Below are positions 21,043 through 50,605 of a stretch of DNA of 52,310 bases, piece by piece. The stretch is from Candidatus Coproplasma excrementigallinarum. Lineage in GTDB: Bacteria; Bacillota; Clostridia; Christensenellales; Borkfalkiaceae. The position numbers were made by a program, and so were the translations under genes. The notes below the pieces were generated by a model. It was not told the origin of the DNA and ran no database searches. It worked only from the letters and a program-made list of their open reading frames with translations. The stretch is taken from positions 1 through 52,310 of the forward strand of contig DVNE01000024.1 in assembly GCA_018714625.1 (NCBI GenBank), written 5' to 3'. Position 1 is the stretch's first letter; every line of letters begins with the position of its first letter.

Positions 21043-21831
21043 TCATGAAAGGAAATAGCGCAGCAACACGCCGCCCACAAGCAGCAGCACAACCGCCGCG
21101 CAGACGGCTATACGTATTATAAGGCGTTTGCGTACAGCGGCGGCACATTCGGCAGAAACTTCGCCGCCATCGCCGCTAACGCAGGCCTTGGGCATAAACT
21201 TTTCGTTCATTCTGTTGATAAGCAATGATATGCGCTTATATACGGGCAGGGTGATGAGTATGGCTATAAGGCAGCGCATTATGTTGAAGGGCAGCACGGA
21301 AATCCACAGATAGTAAGTATAGAATGTGTCCTCCGTTACGCCGTCGCCGAAGAGAGCACGCATGGGGTCGAGCAATATATCCCAGTTGCCGCCGAAGGAA
21401 ACCTGAAGATAATAAGGAATGAGTACGAGCCAGTTGGCGATTATGGAGAGCGCGACGGAACAGAGCGAACCTATGCCCATACCGAGGAGAGCGCCCTTGA
21501 AAGTGCGGTGCTTTTTATATATTATGCCCGCGGGCACGACAAAGGCAAGGCCGATTATAAGGTCGGCAAAGTCGCCTATGAACACCGTGGTAGTACCCTT
21601 TATTATCAGCTTTATGAGTACCTTTACAAAAACTATTATGCCGCCCGAAACAGGGCCGAGTGCAAAAGTGCCTATGAGGGCGGGTATGTCTGAAAAGTTC
21701 AGCTCCAGCCACGAGGGGAAGGCAAAGCCCATCGGGAAGCCGAACACATACAGCACGCCTGCGATGGTGGCAAACATTGCGATTACCGCAATGCGGGTTG
21801 CAGTAAAGTACTGCGAGGTCTTGTTCTGCAT
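21043..21831 (-). CDS. ribU: Riboflavin ECF transporter S component RibU
   Basis: Membrane substrate-binding subunit that imports riboflavin with an ECF ATPase module encoded elsewhere. The 262 residues contain about six hydrophobic segments; family blocks include ELNFSDIPALIGTFALGPVS and GDFADLIIG. An extra C-terminal hydrophobic helix (about 239-260) follows a charged linker and is not typical. AGGAG precedes the ATG. The assignment is supported strongly by the FMN riboswitch and its terminator immediately upstream, so expression should fall when FMN is plentiful. Confidence 0.93.
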   Translation of the reverse strand: MQNKTSQYFTATRIAVIAMFATIAGVLYVFGFPMGFAFPSWLELNFSDIPALIGTFALGPVSGGIIVFVKVLIKLIIKGTTTVFIGDFADLIIGLAFVVPAGIIYKKHRTFKGALLGMGIGSLCSVALSIIANWLVLIPYYLQVSFGGNWDILLDPMRALFGDGVTEDTFYTYYLWISVLPFNIMRCLIAILITLPVYKRISLLINRMNEKFMPKACVSGDGGEVSAECAAAVRKRLIIRIAVCAAVVLLLVGGVLLRYFLS

Positions 21832-21913: not shown

Positions 21914-21935
21914 GCAAAAAGCGGTTTGATAAAAA

Positions 21936-22089
21936 TTCTTTTACCATCCGGACTATACCGTCGGTTACGGAATTGCACCGTATCGGGAGGACGAAACAGG
22001 CCGCCCTCTTCGCAGACTTACGACTATACGCGCCATCTGACGCGCGTGCCGCTCACTGCCGGTGGGGAATTACACCCCGCCCCAAAGAA
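21936..22089 (-). promoter_or_regulatory. FMN riboswitch (RFN element)
   Basis: On the minus strand GGGGCGGGGTG, then ATTCCCCACCGGCAGT, a variable middle, and GGTGCAATTCC, CCGACGGTATAGTCCGGATG match the conserved blocks of the RFN aptamer in order. A closing P1 stem TTCTTT/AAAGAA brackets it (22089-22084 with 21941-21936). It controls ribU through the terminator at 21884-21913. Confidence 0.95.
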
Positions 22090-22343
22090 CTACTATTAAA
22101 ACTGAAATACAAATAAACTATGCCAAAAAGTTTTCCGTGCGGAAAATTACTTCCGCATCTATTCACAGACGCGCTTAAATTTTAAAGCATGCCGCGCGGA
22201 AAAACTGCACAGAGGCATAAGTCTTATTGAAGTCTGTAATAATTATATAACGCAAAAAAAGCGCTGTCAACTACATTGCAGGCAAACCTGACTTTAAAAA
22301 TGCAAAATTTTTGGTAAATATAAGACCAAATTATCGCCAGCTA

Positions 22344-46527: not shown

Positions 46528-46579
46528 TTATATTTCAATAAGAAAGTCCGCGCTTATATTTCAATAAGAAAGCCCGCGT
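46528..46579. repeat. 26-bp tandem duplication of the niaR 3' end
   Basis: The 26-base unit 46554-46579, which encodes the last eight codons and stop of niaR, is repeated immediately downstream at 46528-46553 with two mismatches. Confidence 0.85.
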
Positions 46580-47066
46580 CGCGCAGGGCATTCTGAATTT
46601 TATCGAGTGTGGCCTCGTCGGCGGCCGTCACGGTGTGGTAATGGTAGCCGTCCGTCACAGCCATGAGCGGTTTGGAAGCGCCGCTCACAAGCGAGCGGTA
46701 GAGCTCCTCCACATGCATCTTGTTATACAGCTCAAGACGGGCGGTAATTCGGCCATATATGCGGTGGTTTACAAAAACATCCTCTATTCTTCCGCCCAGC
46801 CCGATAATGATATACCCTTCGTCCACAATCTGTTCAAAGGAATGCCTACACTTGAACACCCTTGTGGCCGAAGGTTTTTTTGTGGCAAGAATATAGCCGC
46901 GGTTGGTAGAGATTATATCGTACCCGTTTGCGCGCAGAATGGCTATATCCTGCACTATTACCTGGCGCGAAACGCCCAGTTTTTCAGCAAGGAGCGCCGC
47001 CGACAGAGCATTGTCGCTGTTGCCGAATGTGGCGAGTATCTCCTGCCTTCTCAAATCAGCCTTCAT
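46554..47066 (-). CDS. niaR: NiaR-family niacin-responsive transcriptional repressor
   Basis: Repressor of NAD synthesis and niacin uptake genes. The 170 residues have an N-terminal winged helix (RRQEILATFGNSDNALSAAL, LGVSRQVIVQDIAILRANGY) and a 3H domain with its histidines in FKCRHSFEQIV, VFVNHRIYGRI and AVTDGYHYHTV. GGAGGG precedes the ATG. It lies downstream of nadB-nadC, which it probably represses through the palindrome at 49728-49753. Its 3' end is duplicated. Confidence 0.93.
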   Translation of the reverse strand: MKADLRRQEILATFGNSDNALSAALLAEKLGVSRQVIVQDIAILRANGYDIISTNRGYILATKKPSATRVFKCRHSFEQIVDEGYIIIGLGGRIEDVFVNHRIYGRITARLELYNKMHVEELYRSLVSGASKPLMAVTDGYHYHTVTAADEATLDKIQNALRDAGFLIEI

Positions 47067-47218: not shown

Positions 47219-48076
47219 TCAGTCTACGGGGTGCAGATTTTTGAGCGATAAATCAAGCACGGGCGCGGAATGGGTAAGCGCGCCGCTCGAAACATAGTCT
47301 ACGCCCGTATCTATAATATTTTTTATGTTCTCTTCGGTGACGTTGCCGCTGCATTCGGTGAGCGCACGCCCGCCTATAAGCTCCACCGCCCTCTTCATGT
47401 CGGCAGGAGACATATTGTCAAGCATGATTATATCCGCGCCCGCCTCAACGGCCTCGCGGCACATATCGAGGTTTTCCACCTCTACCTCCACCTTGCGGAC
47501 AAAGGGAGCGTAATCGCGCGCCATTTTTATGGCTTTTGCTACGCCGCCTGCCGCGCCGATGTGGTTATCCTTTAAAAGAATACCGTCTGAAAGGTTGTAG
47601 CGGTGATTTACCCCGCCTCCGACTTTTACGGCGTATTTTTCAAATATGCGCATATTGGGCGTAGTTTTACGCGTATCGAGCAGTCTGGTCTTGCAGCCTT
47701 TGAGCAGATTTACCACCCTGCGCGTATATGTTGCAATGCCGCTCATGCGCTGAAGGTAGTTGAGCGCGGTGCGCTCGCCCGATAGAAGCACGCGTATGTC
47801 ACCAGTCACTCTGGCTACATGCTCGCCCTTTTTTACCTCGTCGCCGTCCTTTTTATACAGCTCGACCTGCGTACCTGCGTCGAGCAAAGTGAAAGTGCGC
47901 GAGAACACGTTGAGCCCGCATATTACGCCGTCCTGCTTGCAGATAAGGTCAACCTCGCCCTTTTTATAATCGGGCATTACGGCGTTGGTGCTTATATCCT
48001 CGTTGGATATATCCTCTTTGAGAGCCATCATTATAAGCTCGTCTGTGTGCAGCTTTTCAGTTACGGGGTTGTTCAC
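47219..48076 (-). CDS. nadC: Quinolinate phosphoribosyltransferase
   Basis: Converts quinolinate and PRPP to nicotinate mononucleotide. The 285 residues have the N-terminal alpha/beta part (ALKEDISNEDISTNAV), ALNYLQRMSGIATYTRR, RLLDTRKTTPNMRIFEKYAV (PRPP/quinolinate site), GGGVNHRYNLSDGILLKDNH and the C-terminal IIMLDNMSPADMK, VTEENI and DYVSSGALTHSAP. The start overlaps nadB by 20 bases. NadA, the quinolinate synthase, is not found beside them. Confidence 0.96.
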   Translation of the reverse strand: MNNPVTEKLHTDELIMMALKEDISNEDISTNAVMPDYKKGEVDLICKQDGVICGLNVFSRTFTLLDAGTQVELYKKDGDEVKKGEHVARVTGDIRVLLSGERTALNYLQRMSGIATYTRRVVNLLKGCKTRLLDTRKTTPNMRIFEKYAVKVGGGVNHRYNLSDGILLKDNHIGAAGGVAKAIKMARDYAPFVRKVEVEVENLDMCREAVEAGADIIMLDNMSPADMKRAVELIGGRALTECSGNVTEENIKNIIDTGVDYVSSGALTHSAPVLDLSLKNLHPVD

Positions 48077-49379
48077 GTTCGGCCTCCTCTATGGCATTGA
48101 GCACTATGCCCTTATAGCTCTTGAGCAGAGCGGGCACGTTTTTATATTTTTCGAGATCGAGCGAAGCCTCCGCCCTTGCGGCGGCGTTCAGGTCAATCCT
48201 CTGATAGTGCGACTGAATATCCTTTGCGGCACGCTTTGCAAATATCAGGCTTTCGAGCAGCGAGTTTGAGGCCAGTCTGTTTGCGCCGTGCACACCGTTG
48301 CAACACGTTTCGCCGACTGCGTACAGCCTGTCCATCGTAGTCCTGCCCTCGAGGTCAGAGCGGATGCCGCCCATAAAATAGTGCTGCGAAGGCACTACGG
48401 GAATACACTCGCGGAATACGTCGTACCCCTCGTCGAGACAGCGCTGCACTATCGTGGGGAAGTGCTTTATTACCTCCTCCCTGGGTATGGGGCGCATATC
48501 CAGCCATACGTGCTTGGTGCCGTCCTTCTTCATCTGCGCGAGAATGTTCTTTGTGACCACGTCGCGCGGCTGAAGCTCGTCGCAGAACCTGTGGAAATTT
48601 TTATCGAGCAGCACTGCACCTTCGCCGCGCACGCTCTCCGAAATGAGGAACCTGCGACCCTTGGTCTTTGAATAGAAGGTCGTAGGGTGTATCTGAATGT
48701 AGTTTATGTGGTCTACGGGAATGCCGTGGTTGAGGCAAATTGCAAGCGCGTCGCCAGTCAGGATACGGAAGTTGGTGGAATTTTCAAACACGCCGCCAAG
48801 TCCGCCCGAAGCGAACACCGTATAGTCGGCATAGAGCCTGTAAAGCTTGCCGTTTTTGCTGTCCTTTGCGACTATGCCGTAGCAGGTGTTGCCCTCGCAG
48901 ATTATGTCCACCATTGTTACATAGGGCGCAATAAAGATATTGCTGCGCGCGCGCACCTTCTGCATAAGTCGGGTGGTTATCTCCTTGCCCGTGCAGTCCT
49001 CGTGGAAGCAAATCCTGGGACGGGAATGTCCGCCCTCGCGCGTGTAGGCAAGCGAGCCGTCTGGATTGCGCGCAAAGCGCACGCCGCAGGCAATAAGATC
49101 GTCTATCAGCTCCTGCGAGTTGCGTATCATGCAGTCTACCGTGGCGGGATTATTTTCGTAGTGACCGGCACGCATGGTGTCTTCAAAGTAGCCCTTGTAG
49201 TCGTCCTCGTCCACGAGGCGGCAAATACCGCCCTGGGCAAGGTAGCTGTCCGACTTATCGGGCGTGTCCTTGCAGATTATAAGAATTTTTTTGTCCGTAG
49301 AGAGGTTGAGCGCGCAGTTGAGCCCCGCAACGCCCGCACCGACTATTATCACATCGTAATATTTATCCAGGTCAATCAT
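48057..49379 (-). CDS. nadB: L-aspartate oxidase NadB
   Basis: FAD enzyme oxidising L-aspartate to iminoaspartate for NAD synthesis. The 440 residues start MIDLDKYYDVIIVGAGVAGL (FAD loop), with DSYLAQGGICRL, the substrate block REGGHSRPRICFHEDCTGKE, FASGGLGGVFENSTN, QIHPTTFYSKTKGRRFLISE and the GVHGANRLASNSLLE end. The length is that of short NadB proteins lacking the extra C-terminal helix. The frame is open 84 codons further up, but this crosses a terminator and structured leader, so ATG 49379 is chosen. Confidence 0.95.
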   Translation of the reverse strand: MIDLDKYYDVIIVGAGVAGLNCALNLSTDKKILIICKDTPDKSDSYLAQGGICRLVDEDDYKGYFEDTMRAGHYENNPATVDCMIRNSQELIDDLIACGVRFARNPDGSLAYTREGGHSRPRICFHEDCTGKEITTRLMQKVRARSNIFIAPYVTMVDIICEGNTCYGIVAKDSKNGKLYRLYADYTVFASGGLGGVFENSTNFRILTGDALAICLNHGIPVDHINYIQIHPTTFYSKTKGRRFLISESVRGEGAVLLDKNFHRFCDELQPRDVVTKNILAQMKKDGTKHVWLDMRPIPREEVIKHFPTIVQRCLDEGYDVFRECIPVVPSQHYFMGGIRSDLEGRTTMDRLYAVGETCCNGVHGANRLASNSLLESLIFAKRAAKDIQSHYQRIDLNAAARAEASLDLEKYKNVPALLKSYKGIVLNAIEEAEREQPRN

Positions 49380-49421: not shown

Positions 49422-49456
49422 AGTTAAAAATAAAGCCGCGGCTTTTCTGCCGCGGC
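49422..49456 (-). terminator. Attenuator-like terminator upstream of nadB
   Basis: On the minus strand the stem GCCGCGGC/GCCGCGGC with loop AGAAAA is followed by TTTATTTTTAA. It lies 43 bases before the nadB start and about 250 bases after the promoter, so it can control read-through. Confidence 0.85.
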
Positions 49457-49706
49457 TGAATGTTACCGTAAGGCGGTAATCACGGCCGGAAATACACCGT
49501 CCCCGCGAGCCTGCCTTGCACGAACAAACACCCTGCGGCCGGCAGTACACCGACGCCGCTGTGCCCGTTCTTTTGCGCCCAGGACGGACAATGCCGTCCC
49601 ATGCAAAGCGGCCGGCAATACACCGTCGCACGCTTACATATGCGCAACCTTAAGAGGAAGAGTTTCGCTCTTCCACGGGCAATACACCCTCACCTTTCCT
49701 AAGGTT
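49457..49706 (-). ncRNA. Structured nadB leader RNA with four tandem hairpin motifs
   Basis: The leader contains four copies of a motif which in RNA reads GACGGUGUAUUGCCGGCCG: plus-strand positions 49674-49692 (diverged), 49609-49627, 49536-49554 and 49483-49501. Each can form CGG-UGUAUUG-CCG, a 3-bp stem with a 7-base loop, and the loop is nearly constant. Between them lie additional hairpins, including GGAAGAG/CTCTTCC, GGACGG/CCGTCC and TACCG/CGGTA, and an outer AACCTTA/TAAGGTT stem around the first. An intrinsic terminator follows. No known riboswitch class that I can recall matches. Confidence 0.6.
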
Positions 49707-49712
49707 GAGCTT

Positions 49713-49741
49713 AGTTTACACTAAAACTTTACACCTGTCAA
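49713..49741 (-). promoter_or_regulatory. Promoter of nadB-nadC-niaR
   Basis: On the minus strand TTGACA (49741-49736) and TAAACT (49718-49713) are 17 bases apart, giving a 330-base leader. Confidence 0.7.
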
Positions 49742-49753
49742 GTTATGTGTAAA
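49728..49753. promoter_or_regulatory. Candidate NiaR operator
   Basis: TTTACAC-N12-GTGTAAA is a perfect 7-base palindrome overlapping the nadB -35. A further TTTACAC half site lies at 49715-49721 over the -10. The position suits repression by the NiaR encoded in the same operon. Confidence 0.62.
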
Positions 49754-49815
49754 CTTTTTTTGTAAAAAGGTAAATTGAAATTTTTTAACAATTTTATGAC
49801 AACTCTGCAAAAACA

Positions 49816-49980
49816 AAAACTTTACCACCGCCGTGCCAAAGAAAAGCCGCTTATAGCTAACCCACAAAAAACTTTACTTTTCCCGCCGCGTCCACAAAGA
49901 ACCTTATTACAACACTGCAAGTATAAACTTTACTCCCCCGCCGTTCCCACGAAGAGCCGCCCGCATTTAGCGTTAAAGTA
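49816..49980. repeat. Three degenerate 52-56-base tandem repeats
   Basis: AAAACTTTAC (49816 and 49868) and TAAACTTTAC (49924) each head a unit that continues with a CCGCCG tract and CCA-x-(A/G)AAG. Units are 52-56 bases long and much diverged. No coding sense is evident. Confidence 0.5.
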
Positions 49981-50092: not shown

Positions 50093-50605
50093 ATGAAGGT
50101 TTCAGAGTTTTTCGGCAAAGAGGTTGAAAACGCGCAGGGCAAAAGCTGCGGCTGGGTGCGCGGAGTGCTTGGAAGCGGCGGCATCCCGCAATTTTTGCAA
50201 TGCTTTGACGGGCAGGAGAGAGAATTTGACATAGACATAAAAAATGTTGTCTCCTGCGGCAAAACAATAGTCTTTGAGGACAGAGCGGCGGCCAGAAAGG
50301 CGAGCAAAAACATACGGCTGGGACTGGCCGCATACACCGAAGAGGGCAAATTTTTGGGTAACCTTACAGAAATTACCTATAAAAACAGCGCCGCCGTATA
50401 TTATATAGACAAAAAAAAGTACGCCGCCGAAGAGTTTTGTGCAGGCGACGTGCTGATTTTAAAACCCCGCCGCACCCTTAAGGAGGACGTAAAGGACAAC
50501 GACGGGGCTATAATTCTTAAAAAGGGCTGCGCCTTAACTCCCGACGCGCTCAAAACCGCGCGCGATGCAGGGGAGTACTTCCAGGCGCAGATGAAAACCA
50601 TTTAG
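50093..50605 (+). CDS. PRC-barrel-like protein
   Basis: Function not certain. The 170 residues look like two small beta-barrel halves: MKVSEFFGKEVENAQGKSCG with VLGSGGIPQFLQCFDG, and a second half with YTEEGKFLGNLTEITYKNS followed by FCAGDVLILK. The plan of a short strand block ending in a (D/E)-G-x-(F/L)-G turn recalls PRC-barrel proteins of the YlmC type. GGAGG before ATG 50093 fixes the start; an upstream start would add seven residues. It is convergent with the next gene, with only three bases between. Confidence 0.55.
   Translation: MKVSEFFGKEVENAQGKSCGWVRGVLGSGGIPQFLQCFDGQEREFDIDIKNVVSCGKTIVFEDRAAARKASKNIRLGLAAYTEEGKFLGNLTEITYKNSAAVYYIDKKKYAAEEFCAGDVLILKPRRTLKEDVKDNDGAIILKKGCALTPDALKTARDAGEYFQAQMKTI

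Follow-up and report, generated by a model that had tools for sequence, protein, structure and literature searches.

NAD+-I, or the nadA motif, consists of tandem bulged stem-loops located before NAD biosynthesis genes, with two domains that each contain a ACANCCCC bulge (PMC7297122). The guanidine-II class (mini-ykkC) is composed of two stem-loops with ACGR tetraloops (PMC5486947). The so-called LoaP leader, a long leader, carries ahead of an intrinsic terminator a small hairpin (the dfn hairpin) to which a read-through-allowing protein binds, this hairpin being of the UNCG type and situated before antibiotic-synthesis gene clusters (PMC12691694). NiaR, finally, is a regulator that acts on DNA (PMC7713382).

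The leader of nadB within the analyzed stretch of 52,310 bases (hereafter the window) exhibits likenesses to, and differences from, each of these systems. Similar to NAD+-I, it possesses tandem bulged stem-loops before a NAD gene; however, its bulge is 2 nt long, its conserved letters reside in a 7-nt loop and the number of copies is two to five. The ACANCCCC motif was not found between the -35 box and nadB in any of 15 leaders (a single match, in L041, lies outside this region and is at chance level), and the NAD+-I covariance model of Rfam 15 matched neither the leader nor the 15 loci. The likeness to guanidine-II consists of very small, near-identical tandem stem-loops with a palindromic loop core that could make loop-loop contact, whereas the units described here have 7-nt YGUAYUD loops, a bulged G below the upper stem and two to five copies; indeed, all 50 pattern-selected units carry a 7-nt loop between the upper-stem arms and not an ACGR tetraloop. 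As in the LoaP leader, small hairpins are positioned ahead of a terminator-like stem, but here they number two to five, display YGUAYUD loops and precede a three-gene NAD operon; GC-flanked UNCG- or ACGR-like strings, counted as strings only and not for pairing, occur in six of the 15 leaders. The presence of a NiaR-family gene in the operon, and of a promoter box with repeats that is common to relatives, recalls the NiaR regulon of Firmicutes, from which the locus differs in that the hairpin leader represents an added RNA layer, present in one clade only. In addition, a terminator-like stem lies between the promoter and the first gene, as in transcription attenuators in general.

Searches with Rfam 15 at gathering score returned only an FMN riboswitch elsewhere in the window and nothing in the leader, in agreement with the earlier view that no known riboswitch class fits. 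At E values up to 10 the leader yielded seven matches, all below gathering score and none of a riboswitch type, including the Cis-reg family aspS RNA (E 9.1), while the 15 loci at E up to 0.5 yielded two, both at 573-661 of L040 and away from the units; these sub-gathering matches look like chance. No such nadB leader was described in the titles and abstract openings that literature searches of open-licence PMC papers listed. The hairpin array is probably an undescribed control switch.

The motif GGYGTAYTDCC occurs four times within 201 nt of the nadB leader, on the minus strand (11-nt cores at 49488-49498, 49541-49551, 49614-49624 and 49678-49688), and nowhere else in the window, for which 100 shuffles gave a mean expectation of 0.17 and never four copies; a chance origin was rejected on this basis and on that of the reversed control described below. 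Repeat finding recovered the same four copies, at spacings of 53, 73 and 64. The four tandem copies reported in the earlier note were thus all present on the minus strand, as the only matches in the window. Its description of each copy as the same 3-bp stem with a UGUAUUG loop needs correction, as the loop is UGUAUUG in just two of the four copies, being UGUACUG in one and UGUAUUU in another; furthermore, that description omitted a lower stem and, on the 5' side, a bulge of 2 nt made up of G and one free base. The lower stem is good in units 3 and 4, the latter with a 3x1 internal loop, and limited to 2 bp in units 1 and 2 (Table 1). The window leader folds more stably than shuffles (z -3.64, 200 shuffles), and its minimum free energy (MFE) fold contains extra hairpins between the units. 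When folded alone, unit 3 forms the unit (z -1.53), as does unit 4, with a stability not above that of shuffles (z +0.40). Among six units folded in this manner (z -2.59 to +0.40), five adopted the upper hairpin on a lower stem, while the sixth, shortened at its 3' end, adopted a different arrangement.

Table 1. Features of the nadB locus in the window. R1, bit score against a covariance model whose training set includes all four units.
Feature	Position	Strand	Details
Promoter	49714..49754	-	-35 TTGACA 49741-49736, -10 TAAACT 49718-49713; within GTTTACAC / GTGTAAA repeats
Hairpin unit 1	49669..49699	-	GGG-UGUAUUG-CCC core, bulge GA, weak lower stem (2 bp); R1 23.4 bits
Spacer hairpin, units 1/2	49656..49674	-	GGAAGAG/CUCUUCC; MFE fold
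Hairpin unit 2	49605..49635	-	CGG-UGUAUUG-CCG, bulge GA; lower stem 2 bp in 2x0 register; R1 27.7 bits
Spacer hairpin, units 2/3	49581..49600	-	MFE fold
Hairpin unit 3	49532..49562	-	CGG-UGUACUG-CCG, bulge GU, 5-bp lower stem GCGGC/GCCGC; R1 36.6 bits
Hairpin unit 4	49479..49509	-	CGG-UGUAUUU-CCG, 3x1 internal loop, lower stem; R1 32.3 bits
Small hairpin 3' of unit 4	49463..49479	-	UUACCG/CGGUAA; MFE fold and sequence reading
Intrinsic-terminator-like stem and T-rich tail	49425..49457	-	GCCGCGGC...GCCGCGGC; scan site 49457-49434
nadB, L-aspartate oxidase	48057..49379	-	NF004820 6e-156, over cut-off
nadC, nicotinate-nucleotide diphosphorylase (carboxylating)	47219..48076	-	TIGR00078 1.7e-106, over cut-off; PF01729, PF02749
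NiaR-family regulator	46554..47066	-	HTH_11 + 3H domain; PF08279, PF02829

A gapless alignment of 50 units from 15 leaders provided the consensus lower stem, G, N, CGG, YGUAYUD, CCG, lower stem. The constancy of GG, GUA and CC is partly due to selection, as these letters were required by the search pattern. The pattern imposed neither the bulged G nor the outer upper-stem pair nor the lower stem; all 50 units have G as the first bulge base, and the outer upper-stem pair (C-G in 40, G-C in eight and A-U in two) is without a mismatch. In some units a 3x0 or 3x1 internal loop replaces the 2-nt bulge. The earlier note had named a lack of compensatory changes in homologous leaders as evidence against its proposal; instead, the lower stem was found to covary across the 50 units. 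Compared to shuffles, which ignore the relatedness of the units, the 49 distinct rows showed more paired cells (81.6% vs 63.4%), a higher covariation score (0.449 vs 0.155) and more double-change cells (84 vs 36.7), with none of 500 shuffles as high in any of the three; the number of pairs with any double change (7 vs 6.7, 354 of 500 as high) was uninformative. Sliding the partner column by one to three positions reduced pairing to 35-54%, and swapping the 3' arms among units reduced the mean lower-stem run from 4.46 to 2.50, the largest value of 2,000 shuffles being 3.16. An alignment of whole leaders displayed two unit positions with lower stems and a third with the upper stem only, in addition to the terminator stem. 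The hairpin structure of these units is therefore shown by comparison.

The distribution of the units was assessed across 93 genomes of the genus with a two-copy pattern, which matched in 16 of them; its reversed control matched in none (0/93). In fifteen the matches are located directly upstream of nadB, and the NadB of these genomes is 82-100% identical to that of the window; the sixteenth (G260), in which the match is not near nadB and the covariance model has no match, was dropped. Strict copies number two in one leader, three in nine, four in four and five in one, at unit-to-unit spacings of 30 to 84 nt; in one leader (G227), a third site beside the two clean units has an altered loop. 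In a subclade of twelve members, 49-57 nt separate the last two units in the eleven leaders that keep both, with more variable spacings further upstream. A NadB match is present in 90 of the genomes; the identity of the main match is at least 82% in the 15 carriers and only there, the next genomes being at 79-80%. A tree of 40 NadB rows, comprising the 15 carriers, 24 non-carriers out of 75 and one outgroup from the family, places the carriers on one side of a single branch (support 100/98), and a single-clade distribution is thus shown by comparison.

No hairpin units were seen in the nadB upstream DNA read for 36 of the 75 non-carriers, nearly all of which possess the same promoter with GTTTACA/GTGTAAA repeats (that of G053 is divergent). 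Between the -35 box and the start codon lie 247-448 nt in carriers, versus 70-150 nt in 14 non-carriers. The simplest history is one gain of the hairpins downstream of an older promoter. The nadB leader is a structured, covarying regulatory RNA with no Rfam 15 match that is tied to a single biosynthesis gene and was, it appears, acquired only once in the genus; its origin can thus be placed on a tree, with close relatives without units serving as natural controls. As separate observations, the non-carrier G199 (L020) has a long leader, its conserved promoter standing several hundred nt ahead of nadB, yet no units, and two others (G025 and G110; L021 and L026) carry the hairpin GCGG-UAUUU-CCGC in a short leader just upstream of nadB, which resembles a unit minus its UG and is not matched by the covariance model.

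To what extent the units are specific to nadB is indicated by this model (R1), built from the 50 units and applied to the 93 genomes. Of the 50 training units 48 were recovered, as follows from the construction of the model, and no other site reached E 0.05; the 46 matches at E 0.023 or below all lie in nadB leaders, in a search that scores only first-look candidates under strict filters and by which weak single copies could be missed. At E up to 1, matches occur in 41 of the 93 genomes, 26 of these being non-carriers. Of eight matches outside nadB leaders, taken from among the best, seven fall in frames of 105-1000 aa; the top match elsewhere (G164, E 0.058) runs antisense to a sequence resembling rplW. 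The eighth, a weak match at 1297-1327 of L103 from a non-carrier (G204:C69; E 0.153), has a longest covering frame of 92 aa and is thus not clearly within a gene. The single-copy pattern with one mismatch occurs at four other places in the window's own genome versus three reversed-control hits, i.e., at chance level.

Beyond the genus, a two-copy scan of bacterial contigs, which required GGTGTA in the first copy and would miss leaders with only GGCGTA copies, returned 28 stretches, of which nine are nadB leaders of this genus (eight with NadB in the stretch); the other 19 stretches contain no NadB homologue. Among 396 genomes sampled from the order, the two-copy pattern occurred in seven, two of which are known carriers (reversed control, one), and viral contigs gave no match to it. 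The earlier note had proposed a search for related leaders, which were found upstream of nadB in the 15 carriers but not upstream of nadA in six carriers; nadA of the window's genome lies on another contig. With 15 of 15 loci before nadB, and all R1 matches at E up to 0.023 confined to nadB leaders, a mobile or dispersed repeat, the other counter-evidence that had been foreseen, was rejected, and the restriction to nadB is shown by comparison. It is thus very likely that these leaders contain a real structured regulatory RNA that is specific to nadB and probably of single origin.

The stretch from the -35 box at 49741 to 49380 on the minus strand leads into nadB. The genes nadB, nadC and niaR presumably form one operon with the NiaR-family gene last, the HTH_11 and 3H domain pair of its product being what we take to be NiaR. 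The GTTTACAC / GTGTAAA repeats at the promoter are a presumed NiaR operator, although by eye the promoter box fits exactly neither of the NiaR consensus types quoted in PMC7713382. Copies resembling AAACTTTACACC at 49724-49735, 49817-49828 and 49925-49936, in or upstream of the promoter, are perhaps degenerate half-sites of this presumed operator. A divergent gene beside nadB (50093-50602, plus strand) has no Pfam match, and a longer reading of it from 50072 no NCBIfam match; similar-looking divergent genes lie upstream of nadB in several relatives without hairpins.

Because a simple scan of the leader region is expected to return 1.3 promoter-like and 2.4 terminator-like sites by chance, the weight given to the promoter and terminator rests on their position and conservation and not on the scan. 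An 8-bp GC stem occupies the same alignment columns in all 15 leaders, with one pair changed from C-G to G-C in three of them, and is followed in carrier leaders by T-rich tails, several of whose T-tracts are interrupted. The placement that had been claimed, with a promoter before the repeats and a terminator after them, is accordingly recovered by comparison at the sequence level, the promoter being common to relatives. In the 14 leaders covered by a complete scan, no sigma-70-like promoter was found from the GC stem to nadB, so that read-through seems to be needed; together, the conserved stem and the lack of a later promoter point to attenuation, and the leader is likely to be an attenuator. 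No conserved partner was found for the 5' arm of the terminator, the partners differing from leader to leader. The link between hairpins and terminator is therefore unreadable from sequence, and the result leans towards a bound factor over a simple two-state switch. Of the earlier proposal of an attenuator alongside NiaR, the structured cis-acting RNA and the NiaR-family gene in the operon are retained. A conserved antiterminator was not found.

The reading preferred here, with a probability of about 0.5, is that in these uncultured gut bacteria, a clade of Candidatus Coproplasma type, the leader acts in cis as an attenuator, all of its repeated hairpins being bound by a single trans-acting factor, which is more probably protein than metabolite. 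Transcription would start at the nadB promoter common to the genus, and the nascent RNA would fold into two to five bulged hairpins, each with a lower stem, a bulged G and a free base, a CGG/CCG upper stem and a YGUAYUD loop. The intrinsic terminator, if active in vivo, would end transcripts ahead of nadB-nadC-niaR unless read-through is allowed. The trans-acting factor, most likely an RNA-binding protein, would bind at each hairpin, and several occupied hairpins may jointly set the level of read-through, presumably in response to NAD status. Small identical modules with variable spacing suit independent binding sites. If a protein does bind, the bulged G and the YGUAYUD loop would define a new bacterial RNA-binding specificity with a multi-site readout.

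Binding of a metabolite is less favoured than binding of a protein. A new riboswitch in which each hairpin, or pairs of hairpins joined through self-complementary GUAY loops, binds a small metabolite is a possibility to be held tentatively; NAD, nicotinate, quinolinate and aspartate are candidates, and tandem copies would give a steep response. This proposal is consistent with the occurrence of the units only at a NAD biosynthesis gene and with the near-constant distance between the last two units in the eleven subclade leaders, as if they were a working pair. The GUAY loop is self-complementary if G-U is allowed and the 7-nt loop has Y where G would pair across two loops, making loop-loop contact possible as judged from the letters, but a GUAU/GUAU contact would give just two Watson-Crick and two G-U pairs, and the strict copy number is odd in ten of the 15 leaders. 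Guanidine-II offers a precedent for a metabolite site made from two tiny stem-loops by loop-loop contact (PMC5486947). The conserved core is, however, very small, no units occur at nadA in the six carriers, and in the collections searched the array occurs in a single clade within one genus. Most riboswitch classes are distributed more widely than that. A more specific version appears doubtful, namely a new riboswitch class for a NAD-pathway metabolite with exceptionally small aptamers, in which a 15-nt bulged hairpin core, repeated two to five times, would bind the metabolite singly or through loop-loop pairs, act jointly on one terminator and have arisen once in a single bacterial clade. Were a metabolite to bind, the repeated aptamer would be unusually small, and the leader would add to the RNA sensors of NAD metabolism.

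The terminated leader might also serve as a small RNA sponge that titrates an RNA-binding protein, nadB being expressed by read-through. CsrB is such a repeat-hairpin sponge, and the targets of CsrA have a GGA loop. An own promoter, two to five identical hairpins and an own terminator-like stem would suit this function, which is nonetheless unlikely, since the array is always ahead of nadB in the 15 carriers, R1 finds it nowhere else in the 93 genomes and the YGUAYUD loop differs from GGA. Slightly less probable again is control of termination by loop-loop contact with a trans-acting small RNA, or with a tRNA anticodon reading UAY. In favour of this, variation in the loop falls mainly at Y, where either base can pair with G, but the loop complement is not enriched elsewhere in the leaders (RUAY 26 vs 28 shuffled), no T-box or other Rfam family matches the leader at gathering score, and a tRNA anticodon would form three pairs only. 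It is very improbable that the repeats act as DNA, as operators (CGG-N7-CCG) to which a dimeric repressor binds, for although CGG...CCG forms a short inverted repeat on the downstream side of the promoter, the lower stem changes in sequence while staying complementary and is offset by two bases on one side only, and such an operator needs neither feature.

Two further candidates were rejected. A loop pseudoknot within the leader is at odds with the same RUAY count, and for a peptide-leader attenuator no conserved ATG-started open reading frame of at least 12 codons was found, such frames being absent or different among the 15 leaders; unit spacings are mostly not multiples of three.

Elsewhere in the window, the FMN riboswitch (RF00050, 98.7 bits) lies at 21932-22093 on the minus strand, just upstream of a membrane protein gene at 21043-21831 which, named by reading, presumably encodes a RibU-type riboflavin transporter component.
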